Source: Clostridia bacterium
Lineage (GTDB): Bacteria > Bacillota > Clostridia > TANB77 > CAG-465
Assembly (NCBI GenBank): GCA_017534305.1
Contig: JAFWCU010000016.1
Coordinates: 1-64,000 of the forward strand
Direction of reading: 5' to 3'
Length of the DNA stretch: 64,000 bases
Shown here: piece by piece, positions 79 to 9,493 of the stretch
Layout of the letters: each line of letters starts with the position of its first letter
Numbering within the stretch: position 1 is the first letter of the stretch
Position numbers and translations under genes: made by a program
Notes under the pieces: model-generated
The model's database searches: none
What the model was told of the DNA's origin: nothing
What the model saw: the letters and a program-made list of their open reading frames with translations, nothing else

Positions 79-111
79 CTTGAAATTTTCAAGGATTACT
101 TGATATATAAA
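79..111 (+). promoter_or_regulatory. promoter with overlapping palindromic operator for the defence operon
   Basis: CTTGAAATTTTCAAG (79-93) is a perfect palindrome with a single central base. It contains TTGAAA (80-85), a good -35 box; TATATA/TATAAA around 104-111 could be the -10, though the spacing (18-20) is slightly long. The palindrome lies 73 bp upstream of a small HTH gene. The layout is that of an autoregulated promoter, as seen for controller proteins of restriction-modification systems. Operator function is inferred, not shown. Confidence 0.45.
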
Positions 112-165
112 AGTATAAATGATAAAATATTTATGTACTAAAAAACTTAGGATGGAAGGTATAAT

Positions 166-390
166 ATGATATTTGATTATAATAAATTATGGAAATTAAT
201 GATTGATAAAAAAATCAATAAAACTGAACTTTGTAAGGAAGCAAAAGTAAGCACTAATGCGATGGCAAAAATGGGAAGAAACGAATCAGTACCACTAGAA
301 ACTTTGGCAAAGATATGTGATATTTTAAAATGCGATTTAAATGATATTGTAGAAATCAAAAGAAAGGAAGATGAAAATGGAAACAACTAA
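166..390 (+). CDS. small Cro/C1-type (XRE) HTH regulator
   Basis: The product is a 74-residue protein made almost entirely of one HTH_XRE domain; the helix-turn-helix lies around residues 18-45 (KTELCKEAKVSTNAMAKM). Such proteins bind palindromic operators as dimers. It is preceded by GGAAGG and overlaps the next gene (mod) by several bases, so the two are translationally coupled. Small regulators directly before restriction-modification genes often act as controller proteins that delay nuclease expression. The perfect palindrome at 79-93 is the obvious target. The family is clear; the role as controller is inferred from context. A stray HTH gene with no link to the RM genes is less likely given the overlap. 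Confidence 0.8.
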   Translation: MIFDYNKLWKLMIDKKINKTELCKEAKVSTNAMAKMGRNESVPLETLAKICDILKCDLNDIVEIKRKEDENGNN

Positions 391-2086
391 CCTATCTAAA
401 ATTAGAAGAGATAAAATGTTAAATACAATTAGTGAAATTAAGAAAGGTATAACCGATGAACAAACTCTTACTAACTTATCTATGATTGAAAATGAACTTA
501 CTAAAAAGAAATATGGTCTAATTTGGGAAGAACATGAGGAACGCGTTGATAAAGAGTTAGAAACGCAAATACCTACTTTTGAAGATGTTAAAGAAAAAGA
601 AATAATTTCTAATCCTGATGATAAATTTAATTTTTTATTAGAGGGAGATAATTTGCATAGTCTTTATCTTTTAGAAAAAACTCATAAGGAAAAAATAGAT
701 GTTATATATATTGATCCACCTTATAATACTGGAAGCAACGATTTTATTTATAATGATAAAATTGTTGACGAAGAAGATGGTTATAAACATTCTAAATGGT
801 TATCCTTTATGGAAAAAAGATTAAGAATAGCAAAAAATTTACTTAGTGATAAGGGAATAATATTAATTTCTATTGATGATAATGAAATTGCACAATTAAA
901 ATTGCTATGTGATGATATTTTTAATGAAATAAATAGAATTTCAATTCATCATATTCAAGTACGATATGCTGAAAAATCATTGGCAGATGGTAAATCAGTT
1001 AAACCAGTAATGGAATATGTTTTAGTTTATGCAAAAGATGCAAGTCAATTTAAAATAAATTTACCAAAAGAAGAATATACAGACGCTAGTTTTATATATG
1101 AGATTAAAGAAATTTCAGATGGAATATCTATTAAAAATAAAGATAATACAGAATTAAAAATATTTAAGCCTGGTGAATGGACAATTGAGAAAAAAGAACA
1201 GTCAAATATAAATTTACTTAAAGAAACATGGGTATCTGGAACAATTTATTCAAAAATGTCATATGGTCAAGTTGTTAGAAAATATATCGAGCCTCGTTAT
1301 AGTATAGACGGATTTGGATGTTTATATAAAGTAATTGGGCGTGGTGATGATGGATTAGGTTACAGATATTATGTTGGTCCTCAAAAAAAAGGTTCTACTA
1401 GATGTAAAATGTATTCCGGTATGCCATTATCTCGAGTCGAAGAAATTAATTCACAAAATGGTTCTTTTAGAGAGGTTCCTATTGCAAATTCAATAAATTT
1501 TGCTGCTGATTTTGGTAATATTCGTCATGAAGGAAATATGCCATTTAATAGTGGTAAAAAACCTGTCAAGATGTTAAAAGAATTAATAAATTATCATACC
1601 AATAAAAATGCTATTATTCTTGATTTTTTTGCAGGTTCTGGGAGTACTGCACAAGCAGTATTAGAATTAAATAATGAAGATAATGGTAATAGACAATTTA
1701 TTTTATGCACAAATAATGAAAATAATATTTGTGAAGAAATTACATATAAAAGAATCAAAAATGTTATTGATGGATATGGAAAATATAAGCCTTTAATTAC
1801 AAATTTAAAATATTATAAGTGCACTTATATTCCAAGAATAAATACCGAAAATGAAAATCTGCATAATAATTTGCTTATTAATATTAAAAACCTTATTCAA
1901 TTAGAAAATGGTATTGAGATTGATGATAATAAAATAAGAGTATATTTAGATGAAGATGAATTAGATAAATTTAGTAAAAATCAAAACGAATTAGATATAT
2001 GTGAAAAATTATATATTTCATCTGATATACTACTAACGCAAATGCAAGAAATATATTTAAAAATAATAACGTTGAAGTGTATATAA
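377..2086 (+). CDS. mod: type III restriction-modification DNA methyltransferase (Mod), 3' end frameshifted
   Basis: This is the modification and specificity subunit of a type III RM system, which transfers a methyl group from AdoMet to adenine. DPPYNTG (motif IV, about residue 113) comes before DFFAGSGST (motif I, about residue 416), the order of beta-class adenine methyltransferases; the segment between them would carry target recognition. ATG 377 is preferred over ATG 371 because AAGGAAG ends at 370. The frame stops at 2084-2086 with an unusual tail. The -1 frame just before it encodes a typical Mod C-terminus (VEVYIIPEYYFEDEI) that runs to 2130 and overlaps the Res start. The slip point is TTTAAAA (2056-2062). 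Either one A was lost or a -1 ribosomal frameshift makes full-length Mod. Confidence 0.9.
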   Translation: METTNLSKIRRDKMLNTISEIKKGITDEQTLTNLSMIENELTKKKYGLIWEEHEERVDKELETQIPTFEDVKEKEIISNPDDKFNFLLEGDNLHSLYLLEKTHKEKIDVIYIDPPYNTGSNDFIYNDKIVDEEDGYKHSKWLSFMEKRLRIAKNLLSDKGIILISIDDNEIAQLKLLCDDIFNEINRISIHHIQVRYAEKSLADGKSVKPVMEYVLVYAKDASQFKINLPKEEYTDASFIYEIKEISDGISIKNKDNTELKIFKPGEWTIEKKEQSNINLLKETWVSGTIYSKMSYGQVVRKYIEPRYSIDGFGCLYKVIGRGDDGLGYRYYVGPQKKGSTRCKMYSGMPLSRVEEINSQNGSFREVPIANSINFAADFGNIRHEGNMPFNSGKKPVKMLKELINYHTNKNAIILDFFAGSGSTAQAVLELNNEDNGNRQFILCTNNENNICEEITYKRIKNVIDGYGKYKPLITNLKYYKCTYIPRINTENENLHNNLLINIKNLIQLENGIEIDDNKIRVYLDEDELDKFSKNQNELDICEKLYISSDILLTQMQEIYLKIITLKCI

Positions 2087-2130
2087 TACCAGAATATTAT
2101 TTTGAAGATGAAATTATGGAGGTAATGTAA
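2056..2130 (+). other. T_TTA_AAA slippery heptamer and -1 frame extension of mod
   Basis: In the mod frame the codons are TAT TTA AAA, so bases 2056-2062 form a canonical X_XXY_YYZ slippery heptamer. Slipping back one base continues through NNNVEVYIIPEYYFEDEIMEVM to the TAA at 2128-2130, whose last A is the first base of the Res start codon. The extension looks like a normal Mod C-terminus and restores the usual mod/res stop-start overlap. I see no Shine-Dalgarno-like stimulator in the 15 bases upstream. A plain single-base deletion in the A-run, or a sequencing error, is equally compatible. Confidence 0.55.
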
Positions 2131-4328
2131 TGCAAGGAATTAGTTTAAAAAAGTTTCAAATAGATACAGTTAATAAATTATTAGATGCAACTAGTATTGG
2201 AACTAAAAAAGAAGTATTAGTACAAGCACCTACTGGATCAGGTAAAACTATAATATTACTTTCTTATATTGAAGAATATTTTAAAGAAAATAAAAACACT
2301 TTATTTGTTTGGCTAACTCCAGGTAAAGGAGATTTGGAAGAACAAAGTAGAAAGAAAATGTTAAAATTCTTGCCTCATCATAAAACACAAACTATACAAG
2401 ATGTTTTATTACAGGGATTTGAAGAAAAATCAACTGCATTTATCAATTGGGAAACTATCACTAAAAAAGGTAATAATGCCCTAAAAGAAGCAGAAAGAAA
2501 AAATCTATATGAAAGAATACACGAGGCTCACAACTCAGGTTATAAGTTTATTGTTATAGTTGATGAAGAACATCTAAATAAAACAGTAAAAGCAGAAAGT
2601 ATTATTGAATATATGAATCCAGATTACATTGTTAGAGTTAGTGCAACTACTAAAACTAACAAAGAAGCAGAATATATTGAAATAGATGAATTAGATGTTA
2701 TTAACTCTGGTTTAATTACAAGAGCGTTATATATAAATGAAAATGTTTCAAATGCCTCTACTCTATCAAATGAACATGAATATTTACTAGATTTAGCAAT
2801 AGAAAAAAGAAAAGCAATAAAACAAGAATATATGAAATTAGGCGTACAAGTTAATCCTTTAATTATTATTCAAGTACCAAGTAAATCAGATGATTTAGTA
2901 AAAATGATTGAAACTACCCTAGAAGAAAAAGGTTATGATTATACTAAACAAAATCTTGCAATTTGGCTTTCTGATAGAAAAGAAAATATAGAGAATATTG
3001 AAGATAATGAATCACTACAAGCAATACTTATAATGAAACAAGCAATATCAACTGGTTGGGATTGCCCTCGTGCTAAAATACTTGTTAAACTTCGTGATAA
3101 TATGAGTGAAGATTTTGAAACTCAAACTATTGGAAGAATTAGAAGAATGCCACAAGGACATCACTATGATAATGTTTTGCTTGATAATTGTTACCTTTAT
3201 ACTTTTGATGAAAAGTATGAAGAATCAGTTAAACAAGAATTAGGTAATAATGCTTATGATACAAAGGTTATATTTTTAAAAAATGAATATAAAAACTTCA
3301 CATTAAAGAAACTATCTTTCGATAATAACTTTGATGGATTTGATGAAAGAGAAACTTTTAATATACTACATAATTTTTATATAGAGAAATATAAATTAAC
3401 TTCTAAAAAGAAAGATAATAAGACTACATTAGAAGCAAATGGCTATATTTTTAAAGATACTATTGAAAATTATATAGTACAAGATAAGATTGTTAGAATT
3501 AATTCAGATGAATTAGAAAATGCTAACAGGATTAAAGTTGAATCTATTGTTACTACAAATAAAAATGGTTTTGAGTTAAGACATGCTATAAATGAAATAG
3601 CATCTAAAATTGGAATGCGTTATGATAGAACAAGATTAATGCTCGAAAGAATGTTTTGGAAACAAAAGTTATTTACTAAAAAGTTTGTAGATTTAACATT
3701 AACTGAATTTTATGCTTTCGTTATTAATAATGTTGATTTATTAAAATCAGATTTTAGTGAAGCAGTATCACAAAAAGCAAGACAAATGAAAATGAAATTT
3801 GAAGAACTTAAAGAAATTGATTGGCACTTACCTCAAATGGATTATATAAAATATGACCCTAAAATGAAAGATACTACTATATATGAAAAATCAGCATATA
3901 TCAATTACCCTAATAGTACAATAAAATCTAAAAGTGAGAGAATGTTTGAATTCTTCTGTGAAAATAATGATAATATCAAATGGTTCTATAAAAATGGTGA
4001 ATCATCAAGTGATTATTTTTCAATAGTTTATGTTGATGCAGTTAATCATAAATGGCACTTCTATCCTGATTTTATTGTATGTGATAAAAATAATAAGATA
4101 TGGATTATTGAAACTAAAGGTGGAGAAAATGCTGATGGTAAATCTAAAAATATAGATATTAAAGTAGAAAATAAATTTGAAGCACTTAAAGAATATTCTA
4201 AGAGATATAATGTCAATTGGGGATTTGTTAGAGATTACGATAAGAATGAGCAATTATACTTTTGTAATACAGAGTATACAGAAGACATGGAAAATGATAA
4301 TTGGGAATTATTAAAAAATATATTTTAG
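2130..4328 (+). CDS. res: type III restriction endonuclease subunit Res (helicase-nuclease)
   Basis: The 732-residue protein is the ATP-dependent translocase and nuclease partner of Mod. It has Walker A APTGSGKT (about residues 33-40), a DEEH Walker B box (about 145), the SF2 segment SATTKTN, a motif VI-like QTIGRIRRMP, and a C-terminal PD-(D/E)xK nuclease (YPDF about 645, ETKG about 661). The length is at the short end for type III Res subunits. It starts in the stop codon of the -1 frame of mod, the usual arrangement for a mod-res pair, with GGAGG upstream. All key residues are present, so it is probably active. Cleavage would require Mod and two inversely oriented unmodified sites, as known for the family. 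Confidence 0.92.
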   Translation: MQGISLKKFQIDTVNKLLDATSIGTKKEVLVQAPTGSGKTIILLSYIEEYFKENKNTLFVWLTPGKGDLEEQSRKKMLKFLPHHKTQTIQDVLLQGFEEKSTAFINWETITKKGNNALKEAERKNLYERIHEAHNSGYKFIVIVDEEHLNKTVKAESIIEYMNPDYIVRVSATTKTNKEAEYIEIDELDVINSGLITRALYINENVSNASTLSNEHEYLLDLAIEKRKAIKQEYMKLGVQVNPLIIIQVPSKSDDLVKMIETTLEEKGYDYTKQNLAIWLSDRKENIENIEDNESLQAILIMKQAISTGWDCPRAKILVKLRDNMSEDFETQTIGRIRRMPQGHHYDNVLLDNCYLYTFDEKYEESVKQELGNNAYDTKVIFLKNEYKNFTLKKLSFDNNFDGFDERETFNILHNFYIEKYKLTSKKKDNKTTLEANGYIFKDTIENYIVQDKIVRINSDELENANRIKVESIVTTNKNGFELRHAINEIASKIGMRYDRTRLMLERMFWKQKLFTKKFVDLTLTEFYAFVINNVDLLKSDFSEAVSQKARQMKMKFEELKEIDWHLPQMDYIKYDPKMKDTTIYEKSAYINYPNSTIKSKSERMFEFFCENNDNIKWFYKNGESSSDYFSIVYVDAVNHKWHFYPDFIVCDKNNKIWIIETKGGENADGKSKNIDIKVENKFEALKEYSKRYNVNWGFVRDYDKNEQLYFCNTEYTEDMENDNWELLKNIF

Positions 4329-4341
4329 CGAGGATATATAA

Positions 4342-5979
4342 ATGTATATTAGTAAAATAAAAATACATAACTTTAAATGCTTTAAAGATTATGAATTATC
4401 TTGTAATCCACAATTAAATATTTTAGTTGGAATGAATGATATTGGTAAATCTACTATATTAGAAGCAATACATTTGTGTTTAACTGGTTTCTTTCGTGGA
4501 AAATATCTGAAAAATAATCTAACACAAGATGTCTTTAATAATGATTGTATTAAAAATTATTTAGACAATATAAAATCTGATGCTAATACTCCATTGCCGT
4601 ATTGTAGTATTGAATTATATTTTCAAGATGCAGACCCTATGCTCTTAGGTAAAGAAAATTCAGATAATGAAAATGTTGCATGCATAACTTATAAAATAAA
4701 GTTTGCTTCAAAATATTGCGAAGATTACGAAATATATAAATCACTTGGCAACCCATATTCACTACCAATAGAATATTATGATATAGAATGGATTAATTCT
4801 GCTGGTAAAGATGTTACAGGTAGAACTATCCCTTATAAATCAATTTTAATAGATACTGATTCATTCATGAGAAATAATAATGATGTACAAATCTCCAGAA
4901 TTATTGAAGAAAATTTAGAGGAAAAAGAATTGGTAGGTATTTCTCAATTGTATAGAAAGATGAATGATAACTTTATAAATGATGAAATTATGACAAACAT
5001 TAATAAAAAACTTAGCCAAAATGCTCATATATTGAATACAACCATACAACTAGATACTGAATCATTGAATCAATCAGATTGGGAAAAATCTGTAATAACA
5101 AGAATAAATGCTACTCCATTTGATTTTGTTGGTAAAGGAACACAAGCAGCAATAAAAATAGAATTGTCTTTAACAAGTGGAAAAGCTGATAAATCTTCAA
5201 TTATTTTAATTGAAGAACCAGAAAACCATTTAACATATTCTAAAATGAATAAATTAATTAGTGAAATAACAAAATTAAATAAAGAAAAGCAAATATTTAT
5301 AACTACACACAGTAGTTTTGTTGCTAATAAACTTAATATTAAAAACTTAATTTTACTCTCTGATAACAAAAACACTTCATTTTCAAAACTGACACCTGAA
5401 ACAATTAATTTTTTTGAAAAGAAGCCTGGATATGATACTTTGAGACTTCTACTATGCAAAAAAGCAATATTAGTTGAAGGTGATGCTGATGAACTAATAG
5501 TGCAAAAAGCATATCTTAACAAAAATGGTATATTGCCTATAGAAAATGATATTGATGTAATTTCTGTTGGAAATACTTTTTTAAGGTTTTTAGAAATATC
5601 TACTCTTTTAAAAAAGAAAACTATTGTAGTAACAGATAATGATGGCGATATAGAACAATTAAAAAATAAATATGAAAACTATCTAGGAAAAAATGAAAAA
5701 GATTTTATAAAAATTTGTTATGACAATGAAACTCATATAGGACAGGGAAATTTAAAATCAAAAAATGGTGGAACATTTAATTATGATACATTAGAACCAT
5801 GTATGCTAAGAGTAAATAATTTAGAAATATTAAATGAAATTTTGGAAACAAATAAATCTTCAGATGATGAATTAATTTACTATATGGTAAACAACAAAAC
5901 TGAATGTGCGTTAAAAATTTTTGATACCACTAAAGATATAAAATTTCCAAAATATATAGAGGATTCGATAAATGAATAA
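4342..5979 (+). CDS. OLD-family ATPase/TOPRIM nuclease, GajA-like
   Basis: The 545-residue protein joins an ABC/SMC-type ATPase to a TOPRIM nuclease. Visible motifs are Walker A GMNDIGKS (about residue 30), Walker B IILIEEPENH (about 290), a TTHSS H-loop, then TOPRIM VEGDADE (about 379) and VTDNDGD (about 432). It starts 13 bases after res and overlaps by 8 bases a UvrD-like helicase gene. OLD nuclease followed by UvrD-like helicase is the Gabija (GajA-GajB) layout of class 2 OLD proteins. GajA nicks DNA and is restrained by nucleotides in the known system. Length is close to known GajA proteins. Whether this pair is true Gabija or a relative needs a tree. Confidence 0.85.
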   Translation: MYISKIKIHNFKCFKDYELSCNPQLNILVGMNDIGKSTILEAIHLCLTGFFRGKYLKNNLTQDVFNNDCIKNYLDNIKSDANTPLPYCSIELYFQDADPMLLGKENSDNENVACITYKIKFASKYCEDYEIYKSLGNPYSLPIEYYDIEWINSAGKDVTGRTIPYKSILIDTDSFMRNNNDVQISRIIEENLEEKELVGISQLYRKMNDNFINDEIMTNINKKLSQNAHILNTTIQLDTESLNQSDWEKSVITRINATPFDFVGKGTQAAIKIELSLTSGKADKSSIILIEEPENHLTYSKMNKLISEITKLNKEKQIFITTHSSFVANKLNIKNLILLSDNKNTSFSKLTPETINFFEKKPGYDTLRLLLCKKAILVEGDADELIVQKAYLNKNGILPIENDIDVISVGNTFLRFLEISTLLKKKTIVVTDNDGDIEQLKNKYENYLGKNEKDFIKICYDNETHIGQGNLKSKNGGTFNYDTLEPCMLRVNNLEILNEILETNKSSDDELIYYMVNNKTECALKIFDTTKDIKFPKYIEDSINE

Positions 5980-7093
5980 TAATCTTTTAATTGCAGGAGC
6001 AGGAACAGGTAAAACAACTTTTATTATTAATAAGGCTTTAACTCGACAAAATAGAGTTTTAATTACAACATACACAATTAAATGTAGAAAAGAAATAGAA
6101 GAACAAATAATTTCTAAAAAAGGTTATATTCCAAATAATATTGTAGTACAAACTTGGTTTTCCTTTTTATTAGAACATGGAATTCATCCATATAAGAAAG
6201 ATTTGGGTATTAAAGAGGTAAATGGTTTAAATTTTGTAAATGGTAAATCAGGAATAAAATATATAAATAAACAAGGTATTCCAATTTGCTATTCAGAAGA
6301 AGACTTTGATAAATTTTATTTTGATGATAACAAAAATGTTTTCTCTGATAAATTATCTAAACTTGTATTAAAAATTAACGAAGCATCAAATAATTCCGTA
6401 TTTGACAGATTATCAAAAATTTTTGATACGATATATATTGATGAAGTACAAGATTTAGTTGGGTATGATTTAGAAATAGTTAAAAAGATATCCGAAAATC
6501 AAAATAACTTATTTTTAGTTGGAGATCCAAGACAAAAGGTTTATGACACACATGTAGATTCAAAATTTAAAAAGTACAATAATGGAAATATAGATGAATT
6601 TATAAAAGATAAATGTAAACAATCAAATTTTTATATAGATACCACAACTTTAAATACATGCAGGAGATGTCATAAAGATATTGTAAAATTTATGAACGAT
6701 TTTTATAAAAAATATGATAATCTTCTAGCAAATGAAAAATCATACAATCAACATCAGGGCATATTTGTTGTAAGAAGTAATGATGTAAGTATATATTTAG
6801 AAAAATATTGTCCTATACAACTTAGATATAATAAGACTAAAAAAGTTGATATTAATTTTAAATTTTTGAATTATAAAGAGGCAAAAGGATGTACATATGA
6901 TAGAACTCTAATATATCCAACAAAAGATTTAGAAAACTACTTAAAAAATAAAAATGATATATCAAAAATAAATACAAAAAACGCTATTTATGTTGCACTA
7001 AGCAGAGCAGTAAATAGTGTTGCAATAGTTTATGATGGAAAAGTTAATGAAAAAGTAAATATTAAAGTTTGGGAGGAAAGTAATGAACAATAA
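5972..7093 (+). CDS. UvrD/Rep-like helicase, GajB-like, compact
   Basis: An SF1A helicase core in 373 residues: motif I GAGTGKT (residues 9-15), Ia ITTYTIKC, II YIDEVQDL (about 157), III LVGDPRQKVY, IV NTCRRC, V KEAKGCTYD, VI YVALSRA (about 341). Every ATPase/helicase motif is present, yet the protein is well short of typical GajB (about 490 residues), so the 1B/2B insertions must be small. It overlaps the OLD gene by 8 bases and the next gene by 11, which points to strict co-translation. In Gabija the helicase joins GajA in a large complex and is thought to sense or respond to nucleotide depletion and DNA ends. That role is inferred here. Confidence 0.83.
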   Translation: MNNNLLIAGAGTGKTTFIINKALTRQNRVLITTYTIKCRKEIEEQIISKKGYIPNNIVVQTWFSFLLEHGIHPYKKDLGIKEVNGLNFVNGKSGIKYINKQGIPICYSEEDFDKFYFDDNKNVFSDKLSKLVLKINEASNNSVFDRLSKIFDTIYIDEVQDLVGYDLEIVKKISENQNNLFLVGDPRQKVYDTHVDSKFKKYNNGNIDEFIKDKCKQSNFYIDTTTLNTCRRCHKDIVKFMNDFYKKYDNLLANEKSYNQHQGIFVVRSNDVSIYLEKYCPIQLRYNKTKKVDINFKFLNYKEAKGCTYDRTLIYPTKDLENYLKNKNDISKINTKNAIYVALSRAVNSVAIVYDGKVNEKVNIKVWEESNEQ

Positions 7094-7643
7094 AGATAGT
7101 TTAATTAATAATATATTAAATTTTTTAGAAAATAATGAAAAAGTAGTTTTAATTACTGGGACTAATCAATATGAAAAACATAAAACGGTTATAGCAATAC
7201 TTAATAAATATTGCCCTAAATCCAAAATTTTGTTTAGAACAAATTCTATGTCTAATATATATGATGAATCATTTTTAGGATGGACTGGATATTTAAAAAA
7301 GAAGATTAAATCTGGAGAAACTTTCAAAATTTCTAAAAATTATTATCAAGTAGACTCTTTTAACACAGAACGAACATGGTACCAAACAGATATTAATTTT
7401 GATTATGCTATATTGTATCCTTTAGATGCTTGTCTTAGAAATAATAGTTTAGAGAAAGTATTAAATAATCTTTTAAATGAAAAAAATATAAAAAAGATAT
7501 TTTTAATCTCATGGACAGATTCAAAATACTACAATTATGAAAAATTTTCTCACTATTACTCTCAAAGGTTTATATGTGATGCATTAGAAGAAGATCCAGA
7601 ATATCATAAAAGAGTGTTGAATAACATCAATAATATTCATTAA
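7083..7643 (+). CDS. unknown protein with degenerate P-loop, third gene of Gabija-like module
   Basis: I do not recognise this 186-residue family. Its N-terminal half alternates hydrophobic strands and helices like a P-loop NTPase: strand KVVLITG, then GTNQYEKH (residues 26-33), which matches GxxxxGK[ST] except that the second Gly is Glu and the final Ser/Thr is His. Later strands are KILFRTN, YAILYPLDA (position of Walker B) and KKIFLISWTD (position of sensor 1). Nucleotide hydrolysis looks unlikely, though binding is possible. It overlaps the helicase gene by 11 bases and is the last gene of the operon. A regulatory or sensor subunit of the OLD-UvrD pair is the simplest reading, and is inference only. 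Confidence 0.6.
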   Translation: MNNKDSLINNILNFLENNEKVVLITGTNQYEKHKTVIAILNKYCPKSKILFRTNSMSNIYDESFLGWTGYLKKKIKSGETFKISKNYYQVDSFNTERTWYQTDINFDYAILYPLDACLRNNSLEKVLNNLLNEKNIKKIFLISWTDSKYYNYEKFSHYYSQRFICDALEEDPEYHKRVLNNINNIH

Positions 7644-7690
7644 AACTATTGATAATGAAAAATATATACTATATAATGTTTATAGAAAGA

Positions 7691-7756
7691 GAGCGTTATG
7701 GTTCGTAAGTTGTTGCTTAATCGCTCCAATTTTTTTTTGCCCATTTTTAATGGGCA
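7691..7756 (+). terminator. tandem intrinsic terminators ending the defence operon
   Basis: GAGCG (7691-7695) pairs with CGCTC (7722-7726), with further pairing inside, and is followed by a run of nine to ten T. Directly after it GCCCAT/ATGGGC (7739-7744 and 7750-7755) forms a second hairpin before ATATTTT. Together they close the operon that starts at 166. Confidence 0.7.
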
Positions 7757-7779
7757 TATTTTAATCAGTAACGAAAAGA

Positions 7780-7809
7780 AGAGTAGTACAACAAAGTACT
7801 ACTCTTTTT
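7780..7809. terminator. bidirectional terminator between convergent units
   Basis: A perfect 10-bp stem, AGAGTAGTAC/GTACTACTCT (7780-7789 and 7796-7805), is followed by TTTT on the plus strand. It lies just past the stop of the minus-strand ABC exporter, so it can serve both directions. The T-run is better on the plus strand. Confidence 0.7.
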
Positions 7810-7810
7810 G

Positions 7811-9493
7811 TTATTTTGCTATTTTGTAAAGTTTTGCAAAATAGCCTTTTTTTCTTAATAATGATTCATAATTTCCAGATTCAACAATCTTTCCATCATT
7901 TAAACAGTAAATTTCATCAACATCTTTTATTGTTTCTAAACGATGAGCAATTATTATTAGTGTTTTGTTGTGAAGTCTTTCTAGTATGTTTTTCATTACA
8001 GCTTTTTCTGTTAGATTGTCCATTGCACTTGTTGCTTCATCTAGTATAACAATAGAAGAGTCTTCAAAGAAAAGTCTTGCTAAAGCCACTCTTTGACGTT
8101 CACCGCCACTCATTTTTACACCTTTTTCACCAAGTTCAGTGTCAAGACCTAATTCAAGCTTTTCATAGAATTTTTCAAGGTGTACAAGACGTAACACTTC
8201 GATTATTTTTTCATCATCTACTTGTTTGTCAAAAACAAGATTTTCACGAAGTGTTCCATCAAATATTGGAGCCTCTTGTGAAACGTAAGACACATGATCA
8301 TAATATGAGTTTAAATCTAAATCTTTTAATTCACTTTGACCAATTTTTACATGGCCTTTTTCATATTTTAAAAGTCCCATTATCATCTTTATTATTGTAG
8401 ACTTCCCAGATCCAGTTTGACCAACAAGAGCAACAGATGAACTTTGTGGTATTTTTAGATTTAGATTTTCAATTACATATCTTTTTCCATAAGAAAAAGA
8501 TACATTTTCTAGTAATAAGTCTCCATGAAGAGAAGAGGTTCTTTTTCCTTCAAGTAGAGCTTCATCATCTTTTTCATCTAAAAGAGATAAATATCTTTTA
8601 ACAGTTACTTTGTTTAATTTGTAATCCACATATTCAACATTGAAAATTGCAATTGGTTCATATGCTTTTCCAAGTAGAGATAAAACTGTAACTATTGCAC
8701 CAACAGTTAAATTTGAATGAATTACGGCGTATCCCAAAACTAACACTTTTAATACATTAACTATTAGTGAAAAAATAGAAAAGAACATTTCGTGTACAAG
8801 TTTTATTTTTGTTTTTGCATCTGTTATGTTTTTTATTCCATCTTTTGTTATTTGTATTTCTGTGTCATACTTCTTGTTTGTTCTGAAAACTACAAGTTCC
8901 ATGAAACCACGAACTAAATGTCTGTTTAATGTTTCTTGGTTTACAAGTATTTTTTCTTTTAACGCATAAAGCTTTTTAAGAATTAAATTAGATATTAAGA
9001 TTACAACTACATAACCTAAAAGAACAAATAACACTAGCTTTTTCTCTACATTGTAAATGAAAAATAGTGAAAATGCTGCAGTAGGAAGTAGCCATCTTGC
9101 AATTTTTAAGTAGAAGTCTATCATTACAGAAGTTGAAGCTGTAGCTCCATCTTCAACTCTTTGGGTAAGAAGACCAGTTCCAAGTTCTTGGTATTTTAGA
9201 TAATCTATTGTTTTCATCTTTCTTAATGCTGCAAGTTTGAAATCTAAATATAGTTTGTTTTTTACTTGTTGCTCAGGATAGTTTTCTATGTAACCAAGTA
9301 TTGTAGATACTATAAGCAACACACCATAAATTAGTAGTGGAGCAATTGTAAGCATGTGAAATTGGTAAGCATCTAGTATTTTTTGGTAGTATGTAACAGC
9401 ATATAAATCTAGAAAGTTTATTGCTATTCCAATTAATACATAAAATAGAATCATTTTTAAGTTTTCTTTTAATACTTCTTTGAATAATTTCAT
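7811..9493 (-). CDS. ABC exporter, fused membrane and ATPase domains
   Basis: A 560-residue half-transporter of the type IV (MsbA/LmrA-like) exporter fold. About 300 N-terminal residues hold six likely membrane segments; the ATPase domain follows with Walker A GQTGSGKST (about residue 358), signature MSGGERQRVALARL (about 460), Walker B VILDEATSAMD and the H-loop IIAHR. It should work as a dimer, either a homodimer or with a partner outside this window, and export lipids, drugs or peptides; the substrate cannot be read from sequence. It is a single-gene unit preceded by a good promoter and a roughly 200-base leader with a terminator-like hairpin, which suggests inducible expression, as for several drug exporters. 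Confidence 0.88.
   Translation of the reverse strand: MKLFKEVLKENLKMILFYVLIGIAINFLDLYAVTYYQKILDAYQFHMLTIAPLLIYGVLLIVSTILGYIENYPEQQVKNKLYLDFKLAALRKMKTIDYLKYQELGTGLLTQRVEDGATASTSVMIDFYLKIARWLLPTAAFSLFFIYNVEKKLVLFVLLGYVVVILISNLILKKLYALKEKILVNQETLNRHLVRGFMELVVFRTNKKYDTEIQITKDGIKNITDAKTKIKLVHEMFFSIFSLIVNVLKVLVLGYAVIHSNLTVGAIVTVLSLLGKAYEPIAIFNVEYVDYKLNKVTVKRYLSLLDEKDDEALLEGKRTSSLHGDLLLENVSFSYGKRYVIENLNLKIPQSSSVALVGQTGSGKSTIIKMIMGLLKYEKGHVKIGQSELKDLDLNSYYDHVSYVSQEAPIFDGTLRENLVFDKQVDDEKIIEVLRLVHLEKFYEKLELGLDTELGEKGVKMSGGERQRVALARLFFEDSSIVILDEATSAMDNLTEKAVMKNILERLHNKTLIIIAHRLETIKDVDEIYCLNDGKIVESGNYESLLRKKGYFAKLYKIAK

Follow-up and report, generated by a model that had tools for sequence, protein, structure and literature searches.

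A Six-Gene Run Combining a Type III Restriction–Modification Module, a Gabija Pair and the Small Protein Orf6 in a Clostridia Bacterium

The window analyzed here is a 64,000-nucleotide stretch of a Clostridia bacterium genome (assembly GCA_017534305.1, contig JAFWCU010000016.1, positions 1 to 64,000 of the forward strand). Near its beginning, six genes follow each other head to tail on the + strand between positions 166 and 7643. They code for a small XRE-type regulator, the Mod and Res proteins of a type III restriction–modification (RM) module, the Gabija proteins GajA and GajB, and a 186-residue protein designated Orf6. The source genome comprises 1.6 Mb in 40 contigs and is 96.6% complete and 6.85% contaminated. 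The features of the gene run are as follows.

166..390, + strand: XRE/Cro-type regulator of 74 residues (HTH_26; Pfam PF13443, E 7e-18), overlapping mod by 20 bases
371..2086, + strand: mod, type III DNA methyltransferase of 571 residues with an apparently frameshifted C-terminus (PF01555; PADLOC MTase_III; motifs)
2026..2130, + strand: alternative-frame stretch resembling the mod C-terminus of relatives (tails of loci L104, L107 and L118)
2130..4328, + strand: res, type III restriction helicase-nuclease of 732 residues (PF04851; PADLOC REase_III, weak; motifs)
4342..5979, + strand: gajA, OLD-family ATPase-TOPRIM nuclease of 545 residues (PADLOC GajA; AAA_15; OLD-like_TOPRIM)
5972..7093, + strand: gajB, compact UvrD-like helicase of 373 residues (PADLOC GajB; motifs)
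7083..7643, + strand: orf6, 186 residues, a member of phrog_36795 predicted to form one RecA/terminase-like motor domain whose P-loop is degenerate (PHROGs, structural model, fold matches)
7738..7845, + strand: terminator cluster closing the gene run (terminator-like sites 7738–7756, 7776–7809 and 7818–7845)

The gene run and its two defence modules

The gene order agrees with the preliminary description of this DNA, which had been made from the sequence alone. That description had also put all gaps in the run at 13 bases or fewer. This holds at the other junctions, as the res–gajA gap is 13 bases, gajB overlaps gajA by 8 bases and orf6 overlaps gajB by 11 bases, but not between mod and res, which are separated by 43 bases in the own frame of mod. 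At this junction, only the alternative frame would satisfy the rule, as its TAA overlaps the ATG of res by one base. The scan for terminator-like sites found none on the + strand between 57 and 7738 and recovered the terminator cluster at the end of the run. Meanwhile, the single candidate promoter proposed there is not established, since promoter-like sites were no commoner in 12 kb (83) than in shuffled sequences (93.5 ± 10.9). It should be noted that the first base of the window is also that of its contig, and only 165 bases are therefore visible upstream of the XRE gene. The joint transcription of all six genes is plausible.

Directly after orf6, a strong promoter-like site on the + strand (11 of 12) lies within positions 7649–7760. 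The 77 bases at 7684–7760, which include T-runs, have a predicted fold of -19.7 kcal/mol, better than that of shuffled sequences (z -2.94). The 7649–7760 element is a candidate terminator pair or small RNA. The Rfam scan at gathering thresholds yielded nothing in the operon; two tRNAs and an L10 leader were detected elsewhere in the window.

The expected motifs were found in all of mod, res, gajA and gajB. Mod matched PF01555 (N6_N4_Mtase; E 6.9e-36, 124.7 bits) and the PADLOC model MTase_III (383.7 bits), and its motifs DPPY at 115 and FAGSG at 420 are those of an N6/N4 methylase. Res matched PF04851 (ResIII; E 2.9e-17, 63.5 bits) and, weakly, PADLOC REase_III (51.9 bits). Its motifs APTGSGKT and DEEH, together with a nuclease-like PD...ETK, correspond to a superfamily 2 (SF2) helicase with a PD-ExK-like nuclease.

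The C-terminus of Mod is not intact as it is in the relatives. The own frame of mod stops at 2086, and another frame, open from 2026 to 2130, reads EVYIIPEYYFEDEIMEVM and ends with a stop overlapping the start of res. As related mod genes (e.g., those of L118 and L104) finish in frame with the same sequence as the EVYIIPEYYFEDEIMEVM stretch or a very similar one, mod appears to be frameshifted around codons 557–559. Either about 15 unrelated residues stand in place of approximately the last 28 of Mod, or there is an assembly error at this point.

A break was also observed in relatives of res. In four genomes these are broken at the same place into a 73-residue frame and a longer frame of 664 residues (L107, 6183–8382; L108, 6113–8312; L109, 8618–10817, minus strand; L112, 3–1734, minus strand, where the longer frame is cut by the contig end). 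The second parts of L107 and L109 differ with a nonsynonymous divergence (dN) of 0.032 and a synonymous divergence (dS) of 0.333, indicating that this part seems to have been kept under selection in the split state. The split may represent programmed frameshifting or a two-piece Res.

The Gabija half was recognized over its full length. GajA matched the PADLOC model PDLC00102 with 590.5 bits over residues 1–544. It also matched AAA_15 (75.3 bits) and OLD-like_TOPRIM (45.4 bits), both past the cut-off, and is thus an ATPase–TOPRIM fusion. GajB, the helicase encoded next to it, matched PDLC00148 with 389.4 bits over positions 1–369 of the 369-position model and UvrD-helicase with 61 bits. It contains the motifs DEVQD, GDPRQ and VALSR, and the P-loop AGAGTGKT was read in it by eye. 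GajB had no sequence relative in the PDB at E 0.001, and the scan of viral contigs with GajA confirmed nothing. The PADLOC matches to MTase_III, GajA and GajB support the earlier claim that a type III RM pair and a Gabija pair stand with a third protein in one tight run.

Occurrence of the two halves in related genomes

Relatives of res were searched for at E ≤ 1e-40 among 287 genomes of the order and were found in 16 of them, the window's own counted. Of the 15 other res-carrying genomes, all but G006 were sampled (genomes are numbered G and loci L), and 15 stretches were read in these 14 genomes. The downstream side of res was readable in 12 of these stretches, as L104, L112 and L118 break off at the contig end, and gajAB was found downstream of mod-res in none of the 12. 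The reverse examination covered 17 related gajAB loci (L022–L026, L072–L076 and seven plasmids, L080–L086, chosen among the best 40 of 1702 matching plasmid records). None of them contained mod-res in the gajAB operon, the upstream side of L082 being cut off. In L076, mod and a weakly matching res lie on the opposite strand, convergent with gajAB and 1.7 kb from it. The nearest relatives of GajA and GajB in the order sample (59% and 50% identity, respectively) are encoded in G266 on a 14.9-kb contig (L022) with neither mod-res nor orf6; a set of genes seeming by eye to be a type I RM system stands beside gajAB there.

The preliminary description had suggested that the two halves form a joint unit and had proposed to judge this by their synteny. 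Within the sampled genomes, the arrangement occurs only here and the halves are separate elsewhere, an outcome that this description had itself named as a refutation, and a conserved joint system is rejected for these genomes. As far as seen, the conserved unit is each half, and the union of mod-res with gajAB is local.

Other defence genes were found behind res in several relatives. In L105 (5540–7438), a gene overlapping res codes for a 632-residue OLD-like ATPase (AriA 95.1 bits, Old 93.3 bits). A 90-residue open reading frame (ORF) and an AbiLi-type ATPase (299.8 bits) follow res in L107 (8397–10062). In L108 (8327–10644), the same two are followed by an AbiLii-type protein (97.6 bits, scanned in L108). 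L109 (5079–8558) contains a Tmn-like protein of 1159 residues behind res (159.2 bits) and a GmrSD protein upstream of mod. The other res relatives with a readable downstream side had no defence genes there. As L107 and L108 share 99.5% identity over the long part of res, they were merged, which with the window added leaves 12 distinct cases; in 3 of these, OLD/AAA-type ATPase cargo stands behind res. The place behind res in this order can thus be a cargo slot holding changing defence genes (OLD-like, AbiL-type or Tmn-like).

The Orf6 family and its neighbours

The recurrent element of this locus, missed by the preliminary description, is Orf6, which adjoins type III RM, Gabija and other systems separately. 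Its residues 2–180 aligned with positions 4–187 of the 188 in phrog_36795 (E 4e-33), i.e., over the full length, and the copies of L047, L054 and L028 matched this family too. There was no terminase family among the PHROGs matches of Orf6. NCBIfam and PADLOC gave no match, Pfam gave a sub-threshold match only, and no PDB chain matched in sequence (best E 0.46). Orf6 is rare: among the 287 genomes of the order, three gave a match, one being the window itself and one false (the match in G029 is a PcrA-type helicase and not a family member). In the class, Orf6 was found in 4 of 391 genomes, the window included. All genome contigs were also scanned with a pattern that detects only copies keeping one of two conserved stretches, and 29 Orf6 loci were obtained, all from Bacillota by name. 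In three of them (L051, L065 and L066), orf6 is broken to a frame of 77–79 residues.

The structure of Orf6 was modelled with AlphaFold2 on 27 sequences. The model (predicted local distance difference test, pLDDT, 89.5; predicted template modelling score, pTM, 0.85) has a single RecA/ASCE-type core. The best fold match was the D6E terminase (Z 12.8; root-mean-square deviation 3.5 Å over 174 residues). Helicases and other motor ATPases reached Z 10–12.7, and the match lists do not rule out any fold family. With its 186 residues and one domain, Orf6 is not a terminase composed of an ATPase and a C-terminal nuclease domain. Nor does it have the Walker A motif GxxxxGK[ST], as it reads GTNQYEKH at this place (GTxQxxKH in the family). 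In 31 sequences, G26 of this loop is present in all and K32 in 30; E, K, Q or D replaces the last glycine, and H stands in 30 of 31 at the Ser/Thr position.

Outside the loop, R52, D91, Y112, P113, K138 and D146 are present in all 31 sequences, Y174 in 30, and H175 and R177 in 29. The invariant or near-invariant polar residues R52, D91, K138, D146, D166, H175 and R177 suggest a role in binding or catalysis. The C-terminal tail DPEYHxRVL is conserved as well, with pLDDT falling there to 60 and 50, and may be a peptide that folds on a partner.

A defence-type neighbour of orf6 was observed in 15 of the 29 genome loci. Type III RM genes stand beside it in L043, L047, L048 and L046; in L046, a DUF4391 gene and a PLD-Snf2 gene are directly upstream of orf6, and mod lies 0.9 kb downstream. 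The order orf6–gajA–gajB–Fic occurs in L038, L039 and L059. These loci carry the Gabija kind with a long GajB, which is 35–45% identical to the pair of the window over only about 45 residues. HerA-like genes adjoin orf6 in L042 and L051, Avs1b-like genes in L054 and L055, PDC-S19 in L040 and PDC-S50 in L057. In L045, a PIN gene is beside orf6 and LmuB (Lamassu-like) one gene further. The HD-CE/HATPase neighbour in L044 was assigned by Pfam, its PADLOC match reaching just 19 bits. In L130, which came from the class search and is not one of the 29, orf6 stands behind a gene for a PDC-S15 protein. It should be noted that the partner names in L038, L039, L059, L051 and L055 and those of mod in L046 and L048 were given by blastp to a scanned relative.

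The family is also found in SPbeta-like phages, on plasmids and beside recombinases, and orf6 adjoins a ParB-methyltransferase gene in L032 and an integrase gene in L061. In the phage contexts of L053 (10001–12717) and L060 (9192–12380), orf6 is directly upstream of the genes for the small and large terminase subunits (PHROGs).

Two further observations concern proteins encoded near orf6. On a plasmid of Priestia filamentosa (L009, 8935–11495), a distant orf6 shares 13 bases with the gene for a 681-residue protein that has no Pfam or PADLOC match, and the two are a candidate for an unknown defence pair. In the Orf6-linked RM loci L047 (12522–13091) and L048 (7184–7804), unnamed proteins of 189 and 206 residues, respectively, are encoded between mod and res; blastp found no significant similarity between them.

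The spacing from orf6 to a defence-type or unknown neighbour on the same strand is -13 to 41 bases in 15 loci (the window, L009, L038, L039, L042–L044, L046–L048, L054, L055, L057, L059 and L130). In the Orf6 tree of 31 rows, 12 rows form a group with support 92/91, below the star of the tool. It contains the window, the Gabija, type III, HerA, LmuB, HD-CE and PDC-S19 rows and one unassigned row. The distribution of partners on the tree was examined with 25 rows carrying 9 labels of our own and 500 shuffles; L009, L041, L050, L052, L056 and L058, which have no assigned neighbour, were left out. The labels required 8 changes, the least possible, whereas the shuffled mean was 12.56 and none of the 500 shuffles was as low. 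Such clustering is expected if Orf6 stays for some time with its partner, and much of it comes from the mobile-element rows standing apart. These are mostly separate from the defence rows, with at least three changes of that label. The partners of Orf6 thus seem to have been kept for a while and changed repeatedly.

Interpretation and comparison with known systems

The explanation that we favour, with a confidence slightly above even, is that the gene run is a composite two-layer defence operon assembled by cargo swapping, in which Orf6 is a portable accessory subunit. All six proteins would be made from one message. The RM half would mark self DNA and cut unmodified DNA, and the cut ends would be open to GajA–GajB, which would act on ends that the repair nuclease of the host does not hold. 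The two halves would thus work in series on the same invader. Such cooperation is mechanistically possible because Gabija has been proposed in a preprint (PMC12407980) to restrict linear DNA not engaged by RecBCD, blocking its circularisation, and cutting by a type III enzyme would generate the ends required.

Orf6 likely has a dedicated helper role. With less certainty, it might tune or trigger whichever nuclease or ATPase is encoded with it, by binding to DNA, a nucleotide or a common host protein. We put forward only tentatively, as a possible but on the whole doubtful extension, that Orf6 defines a family of accessory subunits of P-loop origin. These would be portable, join immune operons unrelated to each other and also occur alone in phages. 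The operons concerned would be those of type III RM, two Gabija kinds, HerA, Avs1-like, Lamassu-like, PDC-S15, PDC-S19 and PDC-S50, and HD-CE/HATPase. The members of the family would all sense or restrain one shared signal, for example DNA ends or packaging, and here Orf6 would couple the type III RM cutter to Gabija.

Several results weigh against the composite operon with a portable subunit. The union of mod-res and gajAB was observed once, and the frameshift in mod means that the RM half may be damaged, or that the assembly is wrong. No defence neighbour was identified in 14 of the 29 loci (L041, L049, L050, L052, L053, L056, L058 and L060–L066), in which some of the neighbours were scanned. 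For a distance control, one gene approximately 6 kb from orf6 was taken in each of ten loci, upstream (downstream for L038), and passed through the same scan. Four of the ten distant genes gave PADLOC matches, one of them weak (ShosT, E 2.5e-4). The adjacent genes of the same loci were of defence type in eight of ten cases, three by homology and one weakly (REase_II in L044, E 9.1e-5), and the two proportions give a Fisher p of 0.17. As distant genes match too, the loci that carry orf6 are defence islands, and standing next to a defence gene gives by itself weak support for a partnership of Orf6. Close spacing as proof is weakened likewise: in 7 of the 14 loci where no defence neighbour was identified, a gene on the same strand lies within 41 bases of orf6 (L053, L056 and L060–L064), and in L038, L039 and L059 a non-defence gene precedes orf6 by 8–15 bases, as near as gajA follows it. 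When the 13 defence rows of the tree were taken alone, the clustering was weak, as 23 of 500 shuffles were as low as the observed labels, and 72 of 500 without L039.

The same control supports, to a degree, the rival that the locus is an ordinary defence island of three independent genes or systems on one strand, uncoupled from each other, with Orf6 a free-standing defence or selfish gene settling in such islands. We regard it as rather unlikely. The separation of the halves elsewhere, the distant defence matches and the occurrence of Orf6 without a recognized defence neighbour, equally tightly spaced in half of such loci, in phages, on plasmids and beside recombinases are what an island would give. 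Meanwhile, the same-strand spacing in the 15 loci, the overlap of orf6 with gajB and the clustering of partners over all labelled rows argue against independent genes.

The mobile-element loci bear on another reading, improbable in our estimation, in which Orf6 is an anti-defence or licensing protein. Phages, plasmids and integrating elements would carry it alone to weaken the defences of the host, and defence loci would carry it so that their system does not attack its own cell on arrival in a new host. This reading is favoured by the copies in SPbeta-like phages and by those beside terminase genes or the ParB-methyltransferase gene, as well as by the position of orf6 directly upstream of a defence gene in L038, L039, L059, L042, L043, L044, L047, L048, L054 and L055. 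However, same-strand genes precede orf6 by 8–41 bases in L038, L039, L059, L047 and L048, and because of these the idea of orf6 as the first gene of its run was dropped, which makes the licensing reading less probable. In the window, L040, L045 and L130, orf6 stands behind the defence gene, and the tree mostly parts the mobile-element rows from the defence rows.

Avs proteins sense terminase, and Orf6 could similarly be a module that resembles terminase and serves as a decoy or as a sensor of packaging, which we consider very unlikely. The top fold matches are indeed terminase ATPase domains, orf6 precedes the terminase genes in L053 and L060, and it lies 39 bases before the Avs1-like gene in L054/L055. 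However, the nearly equal scores of helicases and other motor ATPases mean that the link may be the common fold only, and Orf6 matched no PDB chain in sequence and no terminase family in PHROGs.

Both halves of the run are known systems; new is their union behind one regulator with Orf6. In the open-licence literature, no paper on phrog_36795 was found, and none of the papers listed deals, by its title or the opening of its abstract, with this operon or with an association of the Orf6 family with several defence systems. The accessible part of a review on domains that defence systems have in common (PMC10952713) contains no mention of an Orf6-like protein. If one small protein is common to many unrelated immune operons and to phages, this would indicate that bacterial immunity has a common trigger or a common weak point, and Orf6 is a short, confidently modelled handle on it. 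We consider Orf6 the part of the gene run most worth testing. The operon itself lends itself naturally to testing whether Gabija is fed by the breaks of restriction, as ends arise from RM and those left free by the host repair nuclease are the proposed target of Gabija.

As in known type III RM systems, the adjoining genes of the window code for a Mod with DPPY and FxGxG and a Res with helicase and PD-ExK-like motifs; they differ in the 732-residue Res, the frameshifted C-terminus of mod and the further defence genes that follow downstream without a break. The gajAB pair resembles Gabija in its full-length model matches and its adjoining, overlapping genes, but its GajB is compact, and it is placed behind a type III RM module with orf6 next to it. 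AAA-ATPase cargo behind RM genes, as in L107/L108, is shared with restriction-linked accessory genes (rlo, AbiL-type), whereas the cargo here is Gabija with Orf6. The rlo genes are a precedent for such cargo in type I loci, which a literature search, returning unrelated papers, did not confirm. Orf6 aligns over its length with phrog_36795, a viral family of unknown function; that library was built from viral proteins, whereas the family is found here also in chromosomal defence loci. Finally, the predicted fold of Orf6 is shared with the large terminase ATPase and the helicase motor domain (Z up to 12.8 over 174 residues), from which it differs by an identity of 5–15%, the lack of a canonical Walker A motif and the lack of a nuclease or second motor domain.

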